Source of the DNA: Ahniella affigens
Lineage (GTDB): Bacteria; Pseudomonadota; Gammaproteobacteria; Xanthomonadales; Ahniellaceae
Assembly (NCBI RefSeq): GCF_003015185.1
Contig: NZ_CP027860.1
Coordinates: 3,100,001-3,164,000 of the forward strand
Direction: 5' to 3'
DNA: 64,000 bases
Shown: positions 51,714 to 64,000 of the stretch, in pieces
Layout of the letters: each line of letters begins with the position of its first letter
How positions within the stretch are numbered: position 1 is the first letter of the stretch
Program-made: the position numbers and the translations under genes
The notes under the pieces: model-generated
The model's database searches: none
What the model saw: the letters and a program-made list of their open reading frames with translations, nothing else
What the model was told of the DNA's origin: nothing

Positions 51714-52439
51714 CTACCGCGAAGATTCGCGGCACTTCTCGATCAGGACAGCCTCCTGCGACTCCGCCGCCGCAGCGATGCCGGTCTGGCCGCTGCCGCA
51801 GAACGGATCAACCACAACGCCGCCGCTGCCGGCAACCTTGCACAACGTCCGCAGAATACTAACCGGCTTTTGTGCAGCGTGAACGCGGCAGCTAGTCGCC
51901 GGCGGCGCCGCACTCAACAAGCCAGGATGATACTCGGCGCCTTCAGTGCTTGTGTCCCTAGGCCCGTTCGTCGCCCAGAGCACATATTCACACTGAGCAC
52001 GAAACCGATTCGGCTGGGGCCGGGCATTGAGCTTGTCCCACGGCACAACGCCGCGCCACACCCAGCCACCAACCTGCAGAGCGTCGGACATTGCAGGAAT
52101 CTGCCGCCAATCCGAGAACACACAAGCAATACCTCCGGGCTTCGTGATGTCCAGGCAGTGACCCAACCAAACGCTAGCCCACATCACAAAGCTGCGCTGG
52201 TCCCGATTGTCACCGAGAAAGTCAGGGTACTGCTTTGCTGCGTCCGAGCTCACATACTTGGTGGACGTTGACGCAACACGATCGGAGCGCGCCATACCCC
52301 CCGATGAATATGGCGGATCGGTAACGACTGCATCAAACGGCCCGAGCTCGGGCAGCAGCAGCGAGGAATCGCCACGATAGAGCGTAACAGGTCCGATTCG
52401 GACGCGCTTTGTCTTACGAATCAGCGTAGCCATACGCAA
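51714..52439 (-). CDS. Phage DNA methyltransferase (N6-adenine or N4-cytosine)
   Basis: 241 residues. DPPYSSGG (41-48) is the catalytic motif IV and VVVDPFCGSGQTG near the C-terminus is the SAM motif I, so motif order is IV then I (beta class). Between them is an unrelated target region with FSDWRQIPAMSDALQVGGW. No restriction endonuclease gene is adjacent, so it is an orphan enzyme, perhaps protecting phage DNA. It lies 19 bases after the last tail gene. Confidence 0.9.
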   Translation of the reverse strand: MRMATLIRKTKRVRIGPVTLYRGDSSLLLPELGPFDAVVTDPPYSSGGMARSDRVASTSTKYVSSDAAKQYPDFLGDNRDQRSFVMWASVWLGHCLDITKPGGIACVFSDWRQIPAMSDALQVGGWVWRGVVPWDKLNARPQPNRFRAQCEYVLWATNGPRDTSTEGAEYHPGLLSAAPPATSCRVHAAQKPVSILRTLCKVAGSGGVVVDPFCGSGQTGIAAAAESQEAVLIEKCRESSR

Positions 52440-54209: not shown

Positions 54210-56671
54210 CAGCCCCACCCCTCGATCGTGACGCGTTGGGAAAAGAAAGACTGCTCGATGCCTACCGCCAGCAACGACTTGCCGGAAGCTAGATCGAGCC
54301 GTGGCGCAGTCACGCGCAACGTGTTACCAGGACGCAATGTAAGCGCCGCGCTGACATCAAGCATTGCCGGAATCGAATAGAACGCGCGCTGCTCAGCATA
54401 GAGTGTGGCCACGCGATTAACTTCCGCCGCCGCGTCCGCGCCAGACTGCAACAGTGTTTCAACGATTGTGGCCTTGTCTGCGTGCTTATAGTACGGATGC
54501 ACCACGCCAACCGCCCGACGAATCTCCTGGAACTTCGCTTTCAGCTTCTCGCGTACATCGGGCTGCACGGCCGTCACGAAATCAGAATCCGAAAACTGTG
54601 ACCAGGTTCGGGCCGCGCCCATCATCGTCGACAACGCCGGAGCGTCGTCAGGCTTGACGCGAATCTCATCATAAAGCCCGCGCTCGGTCAGCGAGAGATG
54701 CGGCGTCGTCGCCGGCGCCTCTAGGCGTCCGGCCGTAATCTGGCCCAAACGGTCAACCGAAATCCACCCGGTGTAACCGGTCATTGTCATGCGCAGCACA
54801 TCACGAATCGTCGTCGCGTCGCGAGTATGGTAGGCGCTTGCGTAATGCGCCTTTGCGTCGAGAGCGGACACCGACGCCGAATCGATATCCCCAACGTCGA
54901 GCTCGCCACGTGTCACAACAAGATGCTCGATCCACTGCGGCAGGTATTGAACTGGCTGCACGGGGTAAACATCGACGCTATTGATCGAGACGTTGCTATT
55001 GCTGGCAGAGTTGACATGAAGCACAAGCGCCGTTTCGCTTGCGCCTGGCGTGATCGTGATGCGGTGCGTCCCAGCAGCCGAAATAGCGCCATGCTCCGTG
55101 CCCAACGTGTTTGCAGCCGTCGCACTGGAAACCCTCAGCGTTCCGGATACATAGGCACTAACGACGACATCGCAGAAGTAAGTCTGGCCAGGTGTCAACA
55201 CGCCAGCCTTCCCGAGCAGCACGGTGCCGCCGCCGCCCGTGTTCCGGAGCTGTGCAGAACCTGCCGGCGACTCATGCACACCAACAATTGCCGATGTTTC
55301 GCCCGTTACAGTCCAGCCGCTAGGATTTGTCGACCAGGTCGCCGCAACCCACGATGTGAAGTCGCCATCGGCGCCGATCACTTCCGCGCCCAGGATGCTC
55401 TCGCCGATCGCCGTCGCAGTGACCTTTCCCGCTGGCACGTTTGTCAGCGCAAAGCCATTGCCGTATCGCGTGAAGTCGATCTGCTGCGTAAACGGGTCGG
55501 CCTGGTCGAACACGTCAACGATGACGTGATCGGGGTCGTCGTGCAGGTCATATCGTCGATTGACCGAATCAGTCTGTGGTGGGTCGATGTGCATACACCG
55601 CCCAAGCGTGACCGGCTTTGGTCGCTCTCTGAGCAGCACGTTAGGTGTTGCCGAATCATAGACGCTCGACTGCAACGGCCGATCCAACTGCGCGAGCACA
55701 TCGGCCATGACAAGGCTAACGGTGTCAGCCCCGAAGTCGACACGTTCCGCGATGCCTTGCGCCCAGATTGCGCAAGCACTGGGGTCAATCCGGCACTGCT
55801 TGGCAGTGCCATACCTGAGCGTTACCAATGCGTTCCGGAACTCCAGTCCGCGCCATGAGTCCAGGCCGCGATCGCGATTCGCGAAAACCAGATCGCCGAT
55901 CAGCGTTGCTGATGCGTCACCACCCCATGGCCAGCACGATACGCGCCTGGTGAGCTTAGGGTCGGCGTTGCGCATCAAACGCGCCAGATAGAGCGTATTG
56001 GCTGGAGTCGCTGTTGGCAGCGTGATCACGGTTTCGCTCGCCAAGTATTTCGTTGCCGGTGTCGATGCGGACACGGCCCAAACACCAGAAGACGCACCAT
56101 CTGGCACAGCGTAAACGAAAGCAGTCGCGCCGAAGTTCGCAGTGATCGCGTGGCCGCTTACAGTGAACTGCGCGCACGGATACCAACTGCCGCTCAGGCC
56201 CGTTGCGACGATCACCCAAGCACCACCAGCGATCGCGACACGATACGTGCCGGCGTCCAAGTCAAGATGGTGACGCACGACGTTGCCTGTCGCCACTGTG
56301 CCGGCGTCACCAGTCACAGCACCTTTGTATCGCACCTGGCCATCCTGGCCAGGTCCCGCAGCAGAGTTGCCCGCGCCATCCGTGCCGAGTTGTGTCGACC
56401 CGATGGCAAATCCCGTTCGCGCGATGCCAGCAGCGAGCACATAGCCTGTGCCAGAAGCGAACGCAAGCGCTGTTTCCCAATACCATTGTCCGCTACTCAA
56501 CACTTGCACCGAGCGCACGCCGTTGTAGTTTGCGGTCGCAGTTGCAGACGCGATCAAATTCGAACCAGACAACGCACAGCCGGCAGTCTTGTCAGATGCG
56601 TTCCAAGTCGTATAGACCCGCGCACCAGGTTGCATCGCATCGATTTGAATGAGCAGGACGCGGGATGTCAT
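54209..56671 (-). CDS. Phage tail tip protein with SPRY-like and carbohydrate-binding-like domains
   Basis: 820 residues. The first 200 residues (GVRSVQVLSSGQWYWETALAFASG, GTYRVAIAGGAWVIVA, ITANFGATAF) resemble a SPRY/concanavalin beta sandwich. Residues about 430-590 form another beta sandwich (WTVTGETSAIVGVHESPAGSAQL, GQTYFCDVVVSAYVSGTL) like family-4/9 carbohydrate-binding modules. The rest is unknown phage-type sequence with VGDIDSASVSALDA and RDVLRMTMTGYTGWIS. Likely host binding at the tail tip; this is inferred. It starts at the tape measure stop (one-base overlap). Confidence 0.7.
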   Translation of the reverse strand: MTSRVLLIQIDAMQPGARVYTTWNASDKTAGCALSGSNLIASATATANYNGVRSVQVLSSGQWYWETALAFASGTGYVLAAGIARTGFAIGSTQLGTDGAGNSAAGPGQDGQVRYKGAVTGDAGTVATGNVVRHHLDLDAGTYRVAIAGGAWVIVATGLSGSWYPCAQFTVSGHAITANFGATAFVYAVPDGASSGVWAVSASTPATKYLASETVITLPTATPANTLYLARLMRNADPKLTRRVSCWPWGGDASATLIGDLVFANRDRGLDSWRGLEFRNALVTLRYGTAKQCRIDPSACAIWAQGIAERVDFGADTVSLVMADVLAQLDRPLQSSVYDSATPNVLLRERPKPVTLGRCMHIDPPQTDSVNRRYDLHDDPDHVIVDVFDQADPFTQQIDFTRYGNGFALTNVPAGKVTATAIGESILGAEVIGADGDFTSWVAATWSTNPSGWTVTGETSAIVGVHESPAGSAQLRNTGGGGTVLLGKAGVLTPGQTYFCDVVVSAYVSGTLRVSSATAANTLGTEHGAISAAGTHRITITPGASETALVLHVNSASNSNVSINSVDVYPVQPVQYLPQWIEHLVVTRGELDVGDIDSASVSALDAKAHYASAYHTRDATTIRDVLRMTMTGYTGWISVDRLGQITAGRLEAPATTPHLSLTERGLYDEIRVKPDDAPALSTMMGAARTWSQFSDSDFVTAVQPDVREKLKAKFQEIRRAVGVVHPYYKHADKATIVETLLQSGADAAAEVNRVATLYAEQRAFYSIPAMLDVSAALTLRPGNTLRVTAPRLDLASGKSLLAVGIEQSFFSQRVTIEGWG

Positions 56672-59600
56672 CAGAAGCCCCCACTAACGCGTGAATATCC
56701 GCCAGCCTTGACCGAACTCGAAACAACCTGCGCTGCATCGGCCGTAGCATCAACAATGGCGCGGCCCGAGCGGTCGACAGTGTCGGAAAGCCGGTCGCCG
56801 TTCTCGGCAACGATTCGACGCAACTCGATGACCTCAGCTTGCAGAGCAGTCAGCAAGTCAATGACCTTCGCGCTTTGGTCGCCGGCAAGGCCACCAAGCG
56901 CCGATTTGCCAGCGCTTGCGGTCGTGGGCGCCTCTGCCTGCAGGGTCGCGAGGATCGCGCGCAGCAAGTCGTTTGCGGTCGCTGTATTGGCATCAACGTT
57001 TTCGAGTAGCACCAGGTCCGACAACAGCTCGCGCGTCTCGGGGTCGACCGACTCAAGATATGGCGCCAACTGCAACCGGAACTGCTCGGGCAGTGTGTTG
57101 GTCAGCTGATTGAGCCGCTCCAGCTGCTCGGCTGCTTCCGCCTGCGTCGCAGCGTTAATAAACGCTTCCCACGTCGGCCGAATCTCTTCCGCGATCCCAG
57201 CAGGAATCGACGCGAGCCGTTCTTCGAACGAATCGTTCAGCAAACTGTTTTGGTCGGCCAACTGGCCCAAGTTCAGGCCCAGTCGGCCAGCTAGTTCGGC
57301 GAGCTCAACGTTCAGCGTGTTTGCAATGTTTGCAAGCTGCCCGACTTGCTCGACGGTTCGCGCCTCTGCCGTCGCGCCCAAGTCGCCGACGAATTGCGCC
57401 AGGTTCACGCCCAGCCGATCAGCAACGGCGAGCCACGACTGCCGCTCAACCTGTGCCAACTGACTGATCTGCGATGCCAGTTCATTCGCAAGCTGCAGCC
57501 GTCGCTGCGCGTCCGCTTGTGCGTCCAACGCATCGCGCTGAGCATAGAGCGCCAGCAGCTGCGCGCTTGGGACCAGCTCGACCTGCGTTTGCTGCTGGCC
57601 TGCCGAGTACGGGTTCTGAATCGCATCAATGCGGTTGTAAAGCGCCTCGGACAGACTATTGAAGTCTTGCCCTGATGCTTCACGGCCGCGCACCAAGTTC
57701 AGATAGATGTCCGCCAAGCCGGACAAGCTATTCAACGCCTCGATGTTGCCGCCCTGAGCTGCCGCGATCGCAACGTTTAGCTGCCGTTCTACCTCAGCCA
57801 GTTGCTGCTCAGGGTTCAGGAACGAATTCGGGCCAAACTTCCAACTTTGCAGGCTCTGCTTGACGCTCGCGAGCCCTTGCTCGAATTGCTCAAACAGATT
57901 AACGACGTTCTCAGTCAAGCCACCGACTGCGCCGCCGCCCTCCGCCTCCAAGCGCGCGATCTCGGCCTCGATCGCCGTGCGACCTGTATAGCCGAGTTGC
58001 TCAATCAGCGACCGCGCGGACTGCTCAAGCTCTTGGATCGCTTGCTGGACCTGGCGCGCTGCCCACCGATGAATCAGCGCGAGCTCTTGCTCGGAAGCGC
58101 CAGCCCTGCCGGCCGCGCGCGCCAGTTCGTTGGCTTGGCCAATCGCCTGCGCATATTGGCTGCGGATTTCGATCAGCCGCGCATCAAGTGCATTCGCAGG
58201 ACCAGCCTCGCCAAGTTGCGCGGCAATGTTCAATAGGAACGCGCTGTAATTGCGCTCGGCATTCGCGACCTGATCGCGCGCTGCAGCAAGCTGCAGCAGC
58301 GCTTGCCCGAATTCGAGCCATTGCACAACCTGGCCAGGTTGCAGCGTCGGCAGTGCCGCTTCAAATCGCGCCCGGAAATCGTTCGCCGAAATAGCGGCAT
58401 CGAGCCCGAGCGTTGCCGCCCGTGCCGATACATCCGCTTGAATCTGCGCAACGGAATTGATCGCGCGCTCGCCCTGCGAATAGAACCCGTCGAAAAAGCT
58501 CTGCCAAAGCGCTTGCGCGCGGTCGAGCCCGCCAGCCGCGTCGACGATGCTCTGCGCGAAGCGAACCACGTCCTCGCGCGTGCGATCCAGCGTCACACCA
58601 GAAAGCCGCAGCGCTTCATCCAGCAGGCTCGCGCTGCGATATACCCGGACATAGGTTTCTGACAGTGATTCTTCACCGCGCTGCAGATCCTCAATCAGAT
58701 CTGTCAGCTGCGTCAGTGTCCCGCCCTGGCCGAGCAGCGCGCGCCCCTTGACCACGTCCTCCTGCGCTTGCAGAAGAAACTGAGCGCCTTCCATCAACAT
58801 TTCAGCGTCGCTTCTCCATCGCTCTGCAATGCGATGCACTTCATTTGTCAGCGCCGCGGCCGCACCAACAGCGCCGCTGTTGGCGCCCGGACCCAACCCT
58901 TCGCCGCCATCGCGGATCGTAAAGCGCCCGACCTGTCGATCGAATGCCGCGCGGATGTCATCAGGATTGGCACCACCAACAAGCAAGTCGCTGACTTGCT
59001 CCGGTGTCAGCACGGGTGGCGCGCTAGATACAGCGTCACCCACTGAACGCGCGACAACGTCAATGATGGCCTCAGCCGCAATACGTGTTCCGGCCAGCTC
59101 CGCAGACGTCTCTTTGATGCGCTCACCGAGCACTGTGACCCAGTATTCAGTCGACTTGACTCGCCCCTTTTTGTCGAACTTTTGGATTGTTTCCAGACTT
59201 GCTTGAATCACTGGCGGAACTTCGATCTCCACTCGCCGAGCCGCATCGATCATCACATCCTGTACCGATGTGAAGAGCCCCCGCGCCGCTGCAATCATTT
59301 CTGGCGTTGCAGGTTTTGGCTGGTTGTCACGCCGCAGTCCACCAAAGAAAGCTGCCTGTCTCTCACGTTGTAACGTTAGCGCCGCGCTTGAACCATCTGG
59401 ACCAATATTGAGTGCTGTGGTCGCGCCTTTAGTCTGCCATTTCGTACCGAACAACTTCCCACCTGAAACAGCGTCAATGATGGCCAACGCGGCAACGATC
59501 CAGCCAACGATCGGAATCGCGGCAGCTGCACCAGCCGCACCACTGACCGCACCACCGGCTGCCGCACCAATACCAGCGCCCGTGGCTGCACCCGCTGCAC

Positions 59601-62496
59601 CACCGAGCAACGCGCCATAACCAACAGTTCCGAGCGCATACCCCGCATAGCCATAGCTGGCCACGCGGGCTGCCGATGCGGCCCCATTGTTGCCAGGGTT
59701 TTGCAATCCATATGCCACGCCGGCAATGGGGCCGAGAACGGGCAGCGCAGGCCCAATCGTTGACGCGAAACCAGACAGCGCGCCACCACTACCGCCCAAG
59801 CCGAGAAGTTGCGCCAGGCCACCCGTGTTCGATCCCGAGACAGACGCGCCGCCCGAGTTCCCAAACACCAGGTTGCCCAGGTTCGCCAGTAAGCCACCTT
59901 GGCTCGACCCGGTCGAGCCGGAGACGAAACTCGCGAACGCATTGGTCAGCGCGCGCTGAGCCAGCAGCGCGAACACCTGCGCGACCCATTGTTTAAGCGC
60001 GTTTAGTGCCTGGTTCAAAAAGTCTTTGAAGCCACGGAAACCGCGACTCACCCAGTCACCGAATGCCTGCGCCACTGAATTGATGGCACTCGACCACGCT
60101 TGCTGGAACTGCTTCGCGTATTCCTGCTGCTTTTGGATCGCTTCGCCGCGTCGATAGAGCGCCGATGTCGTCTGCTCGATCTGCGATCGTTCTTCAGGGC
60201 TCAGGTTTCGATTGAACCGCTCCAGCGACAGTTCTTCGGCCTGGCGTAGTGCCTGCCGGATCTCGCGCTGCTCATTCGAAAGCCGCAGCGCCTCGACTTC
60301 ATCACGCAAGCCGGCCGTGACTTCGTTGGCAATCGTTGGCTTGCGTGCTTCTGCCGCCAGCTTCCGCTCGATCTCTTGTGTGACCTGCGCATAGGCAGCG
60401 GCTTCAGCAGCGAGCGCCCGCGTGACGCCCGCCTGGATCGTCGCTTCATCACGCTTGGCCGTGCCCATCTTGCGCGATGCTTCAATAGCCTTCGCGCCCT
60501 CGCTCGCAATCTCTCGAATCCGCTTGATGTGATCGGCTTCGGCGCGCGCCAATGGACCAGCCACTTCGGCCTCTGCGGCCTCCGCCTTCTGTGTCAGTTC
60601 CTGCAGAGCTGACCCGTATTGATTGGCTGCCGCTGCGGCACGGCGTGCCTCGGCCGCCGCTTTCGAGTCATTGCCCGCGAGCCGCTCCAATTCTTCGCGC
60701 AATGCCTTTGTGCGCGCTTCCAGCTCTGCCTTTGACGCTGCGTTGGCGTCAGTCGCTGCCGTGTCTTGGTTGGCTTGCTGATTCAGGCGCTCGAATGCGT
60801 CGGTCACATCCAGAACAGACTGGTCCCAGCTCGCGCGAACCGCGTCGATCTGCGTCGTGATTTGATCGCGGCCGGACCTGATTATGGCCAGCGCGCGCTT
60901 GTCCGCGTTGACGATCGCCTCAGCAGCACCCACGAAGTTGAACGCCAGCAGGTTCTTCTGATATTCGCGAATGCCCTCGATCGAGCTCTTGAATAGCGCC
61001 GCTATGGTCCCCGTCACGATGAACGAGACCTCGGCCATTCCGGCGACGGTCGCAGTCAGCCCTTCAATAGTGTTCTTGGCTGCAGTCGCGCCAATAACAA
61101 TGATCTTTAGACCAGAAGCCAAAACGTCTGCACTCTCGCCGCTCTTGTTCGCTGCGGCAGCCTCCTGCAGCAACGTATCGGCGACGCCCTTCACGACGGC
61201 AGCAAGCGCAGACGACTCGCCGCTAGTGTTCATGAGTGCGTTAACGTACTCACCCCAAGCGTTCGACGCTTGCTGAGTCGCGGCACCTACCGTCGCGGGA
61301 AACGTCGACAGCTCAGATTTGAGTTTATCGGACTGCAACAGAATCGCTTCAGCAATGATGCCCGAAGTCAGTTTCTGTTGCTCCGCGAGTTTTCGCAGCT
61401 CGCCGACACCAATACCCAGACTGTCGCTCAGCGCTTTGACCAGGCGCGGCGAGTTTTCCATCACACTGCGGAACTCATCGCCACTCAGCACACCAGATGC
61501 AAAGGCTTGGGCCAGCTGCATGACGCCGGCAGCAGCGCTTTCAGACGATCCGCCGCTCAGGCGCGTTGCGGCCGTGATGGCCTCTGTCAGCTGGAGCTGA
61601 CGCGCTTGCTCCAGCCCGAGCGACTTCGTCGACTGCGCGATGCGCGTGTAGAGTTGAGCCACTGATTCGAACGCGGTCGATGCACGTTGTGCAATCGCGA
61701 ACGTCGCCTGCCGTGCCGCTTGATATTCCTGCTCAGACTCAGTGGCCAGCCGCAATCGGGCTTCAATCGACGCGATCGCGTCAGACACTTGAATCAAGTC
61801 GCGCAGCACAGCGCGCGCACCGGCCAAGCTTGCCCACAGTCCGGCCAGGTTCTGAATGCCGTTCAACGCACCCTGAAGCTTGCGAACTTGCGCTTCGACG
61901 GCACCGATGTCAGCAGCAGCAGCGCGAATGCGACTGCCGGACGAACCAAGGCGACCCAGGTCGGCATCGATTCCACGCGTCGCCGTCGAGACACTGCCGG
62001 CCGCACGAAGCATCTCGCGCAGTCCCGTTGCACCTGCGCGGCCTGCTGCAGCGGCCGAGTTGCCAGCTTCCACCGAGTCTTGGCGCAGCCCTTGCATCGC
62101 GATCGACGCTGACCGCGCGGATACCTCGACGCGTTCGAACGCTGCTGCGGCGCGATCACCCGCGCTGGCCAGGGAGTGCGTCGCCGCGCGCGTATCGCGC
62201 ACGTGCTTGGCAGCGGTCGCCGCATTAGTCGCAATCGAGCTCAGACCCTGAGCCGCACCACCGACCCCCTTCGACGCTTGCGCGCCGATCTGCCCGACAT
62301 CTGTTTGCGCTTGACGCGATGCGGCCGACACTTTGGCCAGCGCCGCGCCCATCGTACTGAACGCCGTATTCGCCTGGCTCGATGTTTGCGCCGCGGTCTT
62401 GCTGATCTGCTGAGTTTCCGCGCGTGCAGCGCGAGCGGCACTAGCGAGGCTAGTGCCGTCTCCTTTCAGATGTAGCCGTGCAACCAGTTCCGTCAT
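56671..62496 (-). CDS. Tail tape measure protein
   Basis: 1,941 residues. The first 200 are coiled-coil. Tape-measure domain around 340-385 (RSVMENSPRLVKALSDSLG, LRKLAEQQKLTSGIIAEA) is diagnostic. A Gly/Ala-rich membrane-like stretch lies at about 850-1025 (GGAAGAATGAGIGAAAGGA), followed by long helical repeats. Tail length scales with its length. The start is one base after the frameshifted chaperone stop. Confidence 0.93.
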   Translation of the reverse strand: MTELVARLHLKGDGTSLASAARAARAETQQISKTAAQTSSQANTAFSTMGAALAKVSAASRQAQTDVGQIGAQASKGVGGAAQGLSSIATNAATAAKHVRDTRAATHSLASAGDRAAAAFERVEVSARSASIAMQGLRQDSVEAGNSAAAAGRAGATGLREMLRAAGSVSTATRGIDADLGRLGSSGSRIRAAAADIGAVEAQVRKLQGALNGIQNLAGLWASLAGARAVLRDLIQVSDAIASIEARLRLATESEQEYQAARQATFAIAQRASTAFESVAQLYTRIAQSTKSLGLEQARQLQLTEAITAATRLSGGSSESAAAGVMQLAQAFASGVLSGDEFRSVMENSPRLVKALSDSLGIGVGELRKLAEQQKLTSGIIAEAILLQSDKLKSELSTFPATVGAATQQASNAWGEYVNALMNTSGESSALAAVVKGVADTLLQEAAAANKSGESADVLASGLKIIVIGATAAKNTIEGLTATVAGMAEVSFIVTGTIAALFKSSIEGIREYQKNLLAFNFVGAAEAIVNADKRALAIIRSGRDQITTQIDAVRASWDQSVLDVTDAFERLNQQANQDTAATDANAASKAELEARTKALREELERLAGNDSKAAAEARRAAAAANQYGSALQELTQKAEAAEAEVAGPLARAEADHIKRIREIASEGAKAIEASRKMGTAKRDEATIQAGVTRALAAEAAAYAQVTQEIERKLAAEARKPTIANEVTAGLRDEVEALRLSNEQREIRQALRQAEELSLERFNRNLSPEERSQIEQTTSALYRRGEAIQKQQEYAKQFQQAWSSAINSVAQAFGDWVSRGFRGFKDFLNQALNALKQWVAQVFALLAQRALTNAFASFVSGSTGSSQGGLLANLGNLVFGNSGGASVSGSNTGGLAQLLGLGGSGGALSGFASTIGPALPVLGPIAGVAYGLQNPGNNGAASAARVASYGYAGYALGTVGYGALLGGAAGAATGAGIGAAAGGAVSGAAGAAAAIPIVGWIVAALAIIDAVSGGKLFGTKWQTKGATTALNIGPDGSSAALTLQRERQAAFFGGLRRDNQPKPATPEMIAAARGLFTSVQDVMIDAARRVEIEVPPVIQASLETIQKFDKKGRVKSTEYWVTVLGERIKETSAELAGTRIAAEAIIDVVARSVGDAVSSAPPVLTPEQVSDLLVGGANPDDIRAAFDRQVGRFTIRDGGEGLGPGANSGAVGAAAALTNEVHRIAERWRSDAEMLMEGAQFLLQAQEDVVKGRALLGQGGTLTQLTDLIEDLQRGEESLSETYVRVYRSASLLDEALRLSGVTLDRTREDVVRFAQSIVDAAGGLDRAQALWQSFFDGFYSQGERAINSVAQIQADVSARAATLGLDAAISANDFRARFEAALPTLQPGQVVQWLEFGQALLQLAAARDQVANAERNYSAFLLNIAAQLGEAGPANALDARLIEIRSQYAQAIGQANELARAAGRAGASEQELALIHRWAARQVQQAIQELEQSARSLIEQLGYTGRTAIEAEIARLEAEGGGAVGGLTENVVNLFEQFEQGLASVKQSLQSWKFGPNSFLNPEQQLAEVERQLNVAIAAAQGGNIEALNSLSGLADIYLNLVRGREASGQDFNSLSEALYNRIDAIQNPYSAGQQQTQVELVPSAQLLALYAQRDALDAQADAQRRLQLANELASQISQLAQVERQSWLAVADRLGVNLAQFVGDLGATAEARTVEQVGQLANIANTLNVELAELAGRLGLNLGQLADQNSLLNDSFEERLASIPAGIAEEIRPTWEAFINAATQAEAAEQLERLNQLTNTLPEQFRLQLAPYLESVDPETRELLSDLVLLENVDANTATANDLLRAILATLQAEAPTTASAGKSALGGLAGDQSAKVIDLLTALQAEVIELRRIVAENGDRLSDTVDRSGRAIVDATADAAQVVSSSVKAGGYSRVSGGF

Positions 62497-62497
62497 G

Positions 62498-63153
62498 CTA
62501 CCGGCGTCTGGCGTTCAACACATTTAGCGCGGATGCTTCCATCACGCGGACCTGCAGCAGCAGGCGTTCGTTCAGTGTGAGCCCGATCGTCCGCGCCACG
62601 GCTTCGATTTCCGTGGCGGGCACAGGACAATGAAACACTCCCGCGAGCGTTGCCGCGATCGGGAAGCGCAGCCCCTGAAAAACTTGGACCGCTTTCCAGT
62701 TGTGCGCGTATACCTCGATGCAACGGTTATTCCTCTCTCTGATCGCGGCGACGACTTCGTCGGGCAGGTTCGGGTCATTGCGGCGCAGCTCTGCAATTTC
62801 GAGTTCCGCACTAGGTCCAGGTGTCGCGAGTGCTATCGCGACTTCCTGGAGTTTTTTCCGACCGGGTCCTGCTTGACTGCATCAAAATAGTCGGTAACGA
62901 TCGCAGGGCGAACGCAGTCGTGACAGGCTGCAGTCTCGATCGCATCCTCATCGTTTTCGGCGTCGTCAATACCCTCGATTTTGACGACTAACATACGCAC
63001 ATAGTCATCATCATTCATCGTAGGGTCGTGCTTACGCACACCCAGTCTGTAGGTGACTTTAAACTTGTACAGGTCTGGCTTGCCTGAGTCGTTCGGGATC
63101 TGCACTTCGAGCGGCCGTGTGAATGTCGTTACTTTCTTCAACAACTGTGCCAT
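62498..63153 (-). CDS. Tail assembly chaperone, long form by -1 frameshift
   Basis: 218 residues: the first 101 codons (63153-62851) in frame 0, then after slippage at A-AAA-AAC the reading continues in the -1 frame from CTC at 62851 for 117 residues to TAG 62498-62500. The extension has no usable start of its own and reads well (PSAELEIAELRRNDPNLP, CIEVYAHNWKAVQVFQG, TEIEAVARTIGLTLNERL). This is the G/GT pattern of lambda-like tails, placed immediately before the tape measure gene. The long form binds the tape measure protein during tail building. Confidence 0.88.
62833..63153 (-). CDS. Tail assembly chaperone, short form
   Basis: 106 residues in frame 0, ending TAG at 62833-62835, five codons after the slip site. 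AGGAG lies about ten bases before the ATG. A beta-rich core (VQIPNDSGKPDLYKFKVTYRLG) followed by acidic helices (DAENDEDAIETAA). It is made in excess over the long form in related phages. Confidence 0.88.
   Translation of the reverse strand: MAQLLKKVTTFTRPLEVQIPNDSGKPDLYKFKVTYRLGVRKHDPTMNDDDYVRMLVVKIEGIDDAENDEDAIETAACHDCVRPAIVTDYFDAVKQDPVGKNSRKSR
62851..62857 (-). other. -1 programmed ribosomal frameshift slip site
   Basis: The heptamer A-AAA-AAC is in the correct phase (codons GGA AAA AAC) for X-XXY-YYZ slippage. It lies six codons before the zero-frame stop, and the -1 frame beyond it is open for 118 codons up to the tape measure start. Confidence 0.9.
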
Positions 63154-63226
63154 CTGCTTCGGCTCCTGGTTTTAAAAGCTGGCGGGGCACCATGCCCCGC
63201 GCAGCGTGACGACTGGCGGGCACTGA

Positions 63227-64000
63227 TTAGGTGCCGCCTCCAAATTCGATTTTGATTTCATCGTTGCCCGTGAGCGGCAGCGCTTTGTATGGGATTTCAT
63301 AGGCGATATCGCCTTCCCACTCGACTTCCTTCGGAATACCGAGCTGCGCATTGGTCACAAACAATCCGACCCGTGATTCCGGCGTGCCCGTGATCGCAGT
63401 CACCCAACTGATCGGAACCTTGGTCTGGTTCTTCCACAGATTCCAAGGATTGATCGTGCCGAACGAGGGGCGCACAATCCGAATGATTCCGGACGGACGG
63501 CGGTCCGTGATCCGCGCGATTCGCGCTTCCGAATGCTCTTTGACCTTCAACTCAGTGTTGAAATCCAGGCTGAAATAAATACCTTCGACCGTGATCCCGT
63601 TGATTGTGACGAAAGCGTTTTCTTTCGTAATCGGCGTCGCCGGATTCGTGAACGCTGAATAGTCTGGATTGACGAAGGCTTGCTCGACCGCTTCCAGACA
63701 GTCACCTTCGAAGCGCACCTTTGCCATGGTGTACTTTTTCATTTCAGCGACGAAGCCAGACCAAGACGCGCGACAGCCCTTCATGGTCTTGAGCGTGCTG
63801 CCATGCTGGAACAGCGCCGTAGCACTTGGGATCGCGGCCGCAACCGGCGTATAACGTGCCAAGGCAGGCGGACCGACCACTAACGTCTCTGCCATGCTTC
63901 CGACGCGAAGTGCGAGCGAAAGGGGCGATGCCTGCCCATTCGTCACTGCGCCGATCAGTGGCGTCGAACCTTCGATGAACCCCTTCACGCCAACGGGCAC
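63227..64000 (-). CDS. Phage major tail tube protein, open at window edge
   Basis: 257 visible residues; a GTG lies exactly at the window edge (64000), and the frame may continue outside. Features: KGFIEGSTPLIGAVTNG, MKKYTMAKVRFEGDCLEAVEQAF, TPITKENAFVTINGITVEGIYFSLDFNTELKVKE, and an end with PYKALPLTGNDEIKIEFGG. Beta-rich with the position (before the chaperone) of the tail tube protein. Identity is inferred from order and general pattern. Confidence 0.75.
   Translation of the reverse strand: MPVGVKGFIEGSTPLIGAVTNGQASPLSLALRVGSMAETLVVGPPALARYTPVAAAIPSATALFQHGSTLKTMKGCRASWSGFVAEMKKYTMAKVRFEGDCLEAVEQAFVNPDYSAFTNPATPITKENAFVTINGITVEGIYFSLDFNTELKVKEHSEARIARITDRRPSGIIRIVRPSFGTINPWNLWKNQTKVPISWVTAITGTPESRVGLFVTNAQLGIPKEVEWEGDIAYEIPYKALPLTGNDEIKIEFGGGT

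Follow-up and report, generated by a model that had tools for sequence, protein, structure and literature searches.

In the window, a stretch of 64,000 nucleotides of Ahniella affigens DNA, one prophage gene with one start very probably gives rise to two tail assembly chaperones, a short form and a rarer long form, through a programmed -1 frameshift. Judged from the sequence, the frameshift is of the lambda G/GT type and, more narrowly, of the TAC_4-DUF1799 kind, and we regard it as a far-diverged new case of an ordinary, well-known device. The mechanism was assigned by homology and anatomy, the homology of the N-terminal half being indirect; the slipping itself, its rate, its stimulation by a stem and what each of the two products does are what we infer.

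The genes concerned lie on the minus strand in the order tube, chaperone, extension, tape measure. The upstream neighbor (63227..64000, running open to the window end) encodes a tail tube protein, whose product matched Pfam Phage_tube_2 with E 2.2e-4 and 21.4 bits, under the cut-off of 27; no PHROG match was found for it. The chaperone is thus placed between a tube gene with a match below cut-off and the tape measure gene. The short, G-like tail assembly chaperone ORF (62833..63153, 106 residues by ORF reading) has AGGAG 9 bases 5' of its ATG and ends in GTC GGA AAA AAC TCC AGG AAG TCG CGA TAG. An earlier note on this DNA had picked out GGA AAA AAC as a slip site five codons before the stop, and we confirmed the slippery heptamer A-AAA-AAC at 62857..62851, in the right phase for the chaperone ORF and with five sense codons between it and the TAG (62835-62833) that ends the short product. 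From the re-read C at 62851 the -1 frame, in agreement with the earlier note, stays open for a T-like (DUF1799/phrog_680) extension of 117 residues to TAG 62500-62498 (62498..62851 with the stop), and between this stop and the ATG of the tape measure gene (62496) lies a single base (62497). The predicted 218-residue fusion has one junction, ...PVGK-N-LQEV..., within the residues ...DPVGKNLQEVAIALATPG.... The tail tape measure gene itself (56671..62496, 1941 residues) was identified by Pfam TMP_3 (E 4e-51), tape-measure PHROGs and TIGR02675, and its frame is uninterrupted over all 1941 codons. Downstream of the tail genes and in the same direction lies a DNA methyltransferase-like ORF (51714-52439, minus strand; phrog_67, E 5e-40).

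Taken singly, neither the open frame nor the heptamer says much. The openness of the extension is weak evidence, because its 117 codons stayed open in 62 of 5000 base shuffles, and the heptamer by itself means little, because X-XXY-YYZ heptamers (Y = A or T, Z not G) occur in any phase 49 and 34 times on the two strands of the window. The GC content of the extension by codon position (0.70/0.44/0.68) follows a pattern like that of the tape measure gene (0.69/0.50/0.66). Searches with the extension gave phrog_680 with E 9.3e-7 and Pfam DUF1799 (PF08809) with E 0.003 and 18.2 bits, under the cut-off of 26. A DUF1799 match at E up to 0.01 was also obtained for 19 of 20 aligned extensions, and these 20 align right from the residue that follows the slip site (L1 in 90% or more). 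The modeled extension (pLDDT 95) had no match in BFVD at E 0.001, the best being A0A7G8Z7Y0 (1.8e-3); weaker rows included several entries named tape measure chaperone (E 0.2-1.2). Among solved structures, VIA-align 2 gave the extension model a best Z of 4.8 (3ol4_A, 53 residues, rmsd 2.1), which is too low to use.

Family evidence for the short chaperone is indirect. Against Pfam and PHROGs it matched no family at E up to 1, and because it lacks a direct profile match we do not file it as a Phage_TAC_4 (PF08748)/phrog_569 member on its own sequence. It does align with the chaperones found upstream of related extensions, and among the 14 rows of that alignment, phrog_569 was matched by 12, of which the window's row is not one, phrog_313 ("tail assembly chaperone") by six and Phage_TAC_4 by four. 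Its model (pLDDT 79.5) best matched A0A7G8Z7Y1 in BFVD (E 3.7e-6) and also matched eiAU gp15 (E 4.6e-3, probability 1.0), a short ORF that itself bears AAAAAAC. As the top BFVD rows for the chaperone model and the extension model have adjacent accessions (A0A7G8Z7Y1 and A0A7G8Z7Y0), they appear to represent neighboring genes of one phage. VIA-align 2 gave the chaperone model no solved structure with Z of at least 5 (best 3.8, too low to use); a sequence-profile search of solved structures returned nothing below E 0.2 and nothing phage-related, and NCBIfam gave no useful score for either the short chaperone or the extension.

The arrangement recurs widely. We searched genomes of the organism's order and class (sets of 299, 369 and 398, with some genomes in more than one set) with the extension families (phrog_680 and DUF1799) or with the window protein, which gave 41 places; L001, L002 and L037 are the window itself and L035 repeats L005, and the remainder of L004-L042 comprises 37 other loci in 35 genomes. 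In 35 of the 37 the extension domain is in the -1 frame of a preceding open frame that carries a phased heptamer: A-AAA-AAC in 24, G-GGA-AAC in 10 and G-GGA-AAA in one (L004). As background, the three heptamers turn up in phase only twice across 5189 codons of those upstream frames. Given the homology of the extension and this recurrence in 35 of 37 loci, the arrangement is therefore beyond chance. With the window included (36 loci), the 0-frame stop directly follows the heptamer in 24, comes one codon later in four and 5-14 codons later in eight. Of the 19 other aligned extensions, the most similar to the window's are those of L005 (33%), L039 (31%) and L004 (28%), and all three share a late 0-frame stop (7, 7 and 5 codons, respectively).

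Two loci break the rule. L010 (639-872) is a DUF1799/phrog_680 locus without a chaperone-like ORF upstream, and in L041 (982-1746, reverse strand of the locus) the domain is part of a single long frame that still contains a phased AAAAAAC, an arrangement that looks like the result of a replaced upstream gene. At L039 (995-1408) site and phase are good (AAAAAAC) and the upstream 0-frame ORF is not chaperone-like, possibly through an indel or an assembly error.

For the window protein the genome contigs yielded no close relative, and a tblastn search of 50,697 phage records with the 218-residue fusion gave no match at E up to 0.01. Nor did the extension of its nearest relative, L005, find a match among phages. 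An extension profile run over 10 genomes of the organism's own family recovered the window and, beyond it, only two loci, both among those above (L053, which is the place of L040, and L054, which is that of L039). An IMG/VR record, UViG_2833611726_000001 (L003; 38,055 bases), matches the window exactly across the 656 bases of chaperone and extension and is probably the same prophage or genome.

Phage relatives were reached with the extension of L024, which found 164 phage records by tblastn; 10 were hand-picked from 40 listed. In all 10 a phased heptamer immediately precedes the stop of the chaperone (AAAAAAC in six and GGGAAAC in four), so that the slip site, whose absence from homologous prophages would by the earlier note have refuted the reading, is present in these phage records as it is in 35 of the 37 genomic loci. 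Silvanus and Smarc2 carry a joined CDS with notes that name a frameshift product, and these two relatives of L024's extension, together with the phrog_680/DUF1799 match, supply the likeness to chaperone extensions that had been anticipated. The earlier note also expected automatic gene callers to miss the extension. This held for RCIP0075 and HK639, where it is unannotated, but not for the two joined CDS or for the other six records, which annotate it as a separate CDS.

It is in annotation that the wider use of the case lies, the joined product being given in just two of the 10 family phage records examined. We would expect a gene caller to break the 218-residue product in two or to overlook part of it. 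Furthermore, phrog_680 and phrog_569 both bear the PHROG label "tail length tape measure protein", which misleads automatic annotation; in the RefSeq phages NC_018454 and NC_042029 both small ORFs are likewise labeled "tail length tape measure protein".

Could the extension be a separate gene, begun at a rare start of its own (such as ATA 62836 or CTG 62788) or read by ribosomes that reinitiate past the TAG? An AGGA does lie 7 bases 5' of ATA 62836, separate CDS features are the commonest annotation in the examined phage records, and ATG, GTG or TTG is present within the first 15 extension codons in eight of the 36 loci and within the open stretch that leads up to the site in 12 of 36. In the window, however, neither the first 71 extension codons nor the open -1 stretch just before the slip site contains ATG, GTG or TTG, as the earlier note had stated for the beginning of the frame. 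The -1 frame 5' of the site contains stops, the earliest usual start in the extension frame is GTG 62638, 46 residues before its end, and before this only starts of rare types (ATA, ATT, CTG, ATC) occur. An independent usual start near the beginning of the -1 frame, the other finding that would have told against frameshifting, was thus not found in the window, and 28 of the 36 loci, the window included, lack one in their first 15 extension codons. Since the alignment of the 20 extensions sets in immediately past the slip site, and heptamer and phase recur across the loci, we consider a separate gene very unlikely and retain a programmed -1 frameshift as the reading of the locus.

Downstream of the slip site a stem-loop is predicted, TCCAGG-AA-GTCGCGA(TAGCAC)TCGCGAC-A-CCTGGA (62816..62850, minus strand; fold of 61 bases). 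Its 13 bp, in two parts, start at the base adjoining the slip site; the inner stem of 7 bp starts 8 bases past the site, and the 0-frame TAG overlaps the loop. The 61 bases fold with -21.9 kcal/mol (z -2.86), a value equaled in 3 of 200 shuffles. Over the 60 bases after the site, the 36 loci have a mean z of -1.95, with 21 below -1.5 and 15 above. In a controlled run the mean z of 35 loci was -1.85 (21 below -1.5 and 11 below -2.5), compared with -0.26 for 384 control segments taken from other parts of these loci (53 below -1.5 and 19 below -2.5); the difference has a Mann-Whitney p of 7e-9, which is a guide only because the loci, being related, are not fully independent. Of the 3' pseudoknot or stem that the earlier note had proposed looking for, the stem is therefore predicted, but the pseudoknot is not claimed: a 5-bp pairing of loop GCACU with AGUGC at 62812-62808 was equaled or bettered in 133 of 2000 downstream shuffles. 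Nor do we claim a Shine-Dalgarno-like stimulator, as an AGGA lies 5' of the window slip site but many of the 36 loci are without one. Rfam gave no match at E up to 1 over 62400-63300.

The slip site contains A6, and runs of the A6 type can slip in transcription, so that the second product might come from transcriptional slippage on the six-A run and not from the ribosome. Yet G-GGA-AAC, in which no run is longer than three, occupies the same place in 10 of the 37 relatives, and the recurring phase and the stronger downstream structure point to the ribosome; we hold slippage in transcription to be extremely unlikely here. It is also extremely unlikely that the two frames derive from one or two genes that used to be intact, with a gap due to the decay of an old prophage or to faulty sequencing: prophage genes do decay, and L041 and L039 look rearranged, but the break, its phase and the kind of heptamer are the same in 35 of 37 loci and in all 10 examined phage records, the tape measure frame is unbroken, and the IMG/VR record has the identical sequence, albeit probably from the same genome.

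Under programmed -1 frameshifting, most ribosomes would read the 106-residue short form and terminate at TAG 62835-62833. A minority, delayed by the stem-loop just downstream, would slip by -1 on A-AAA-AAC and read 117 further residues, giving the 218-residue fusion. By analogy with lambda gpG/gpGT, many copies of the short form may coat the tape measure protein, whilst the extension of the few long forms may recruit tail tube subunits; neither form would be expected in the virion, again by analogy with lambda.

Counting against this interpretation are the DUF1799 score below cut-off, the short chaperone's lack of a direct family match, the two of 37 loci without the arrangement, the upstream frame of L039, the deviating heptamer of L004, the 15 of 36 folds with z above -1.5, the usual starts near the site in some loci, the absence of a solved structure with a usable Z and the choice of heptamer, A-AAA-AAC being far less shift-prone than A-AAA-AAG in E. 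coli according to an excerpt of PMC5009743. The heptamer ends in C (A-AAA-AAC or G-GGA-AAC) in 34 of the 35 related loci with a heptamer and in all 10 phage records examined. This ending may be kept because weak slipping in bacteria holds the long form low. We lean towards a broader view, in which the entire DUF1799/phrog_680 family represents the C-terminal half of a tail chaperone, decoded by frameshifting, and not a free-standing family or a tape measure protein, with a nearly fixed signal of a heptamer ending in C, a stop usually directly after it and a strong stem. No statement of such a DUF1799-wide rule was found in the literature searched, which was mostly open-access; of the papers searched, one, PMC9658991, names DUF1799, and it does not use the word frameshift. 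VarioGold itself has AAAAAAC immediately ahead of its chaperone stop.

The earlier note had likened the locus to the G/GT genes of lambda-type tails. The G/GT-type arrangement stands, with a G-like short form, a -1 fusion and a location before the tape measure gene as in the excerpted accounts of lambda gpG/gpGT, whereas "lambda-type" is better narrowed to the TAC_4-DUF1799 kind. The slip sites differ (A-AAA-AAC in the window, G-GGA-AAG in lambda), and the likeness to lambda described here is one of layout. Lambda makes gpG and gpGT at about 30:1, and the roles of G and T have been described in a system widely conserved in long-tailed phages (PMC5009743, in excerpt). Other phages have been credited, in the published excerpts, with predicted frameshifts of similar design: Burkholderia phage KL1 gp18/gp19, with GGGAAAC just before TGA (PMC3483164), Caulobacter phage phiCbK gp93/gp94, with AAAAAAC, and Colossus, with GGGAAAC (PMC3556154), and Acinetobacter phage Loki gp12/gp13, with AAAAAAC adjoining the stop (PMC5313236). 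As far as those excerpts go, the resemblance of KL1, phiCbK and Loki to the window's kind is in the heptamer and, for KL1 and Loki, also in the stop close by. The device is not universal, as the excerpted paper on Burkholderia phage KS10 reports that no frameshift site was found (PMC2628397).

In excerpts of broader surveys, SEA-PHAGES lists 2397 joined chaperone genes (PMC10885494), and the GeneTack study measured 6% and 7% shifting in two chaperone genes (PMC3711429). The HK97-like chaperone genes in that excerpt are, like the predicted case in the window, frameshift chaperones of phage origin in prokaryotic genomes. The nearest known systems are the TAC_4-DUF1799 (phrog_569 and phrog_680) pairs, for example in Stenotrophomonas phage Silvanus and Serratia phage Smarc2, where the gene order and the heptamer A-AAA-AAC are as in the window and the annotation reads tape measure chaperone or pre-tape measure frameshift protein. 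The extensions of these two phages are related by tblastn to that of L024 but were not matched by the window query. The window proteins are far diverged from these phage pairs, and their stop lies five codons past the site, whereas that of the phage pairs follows it directly.
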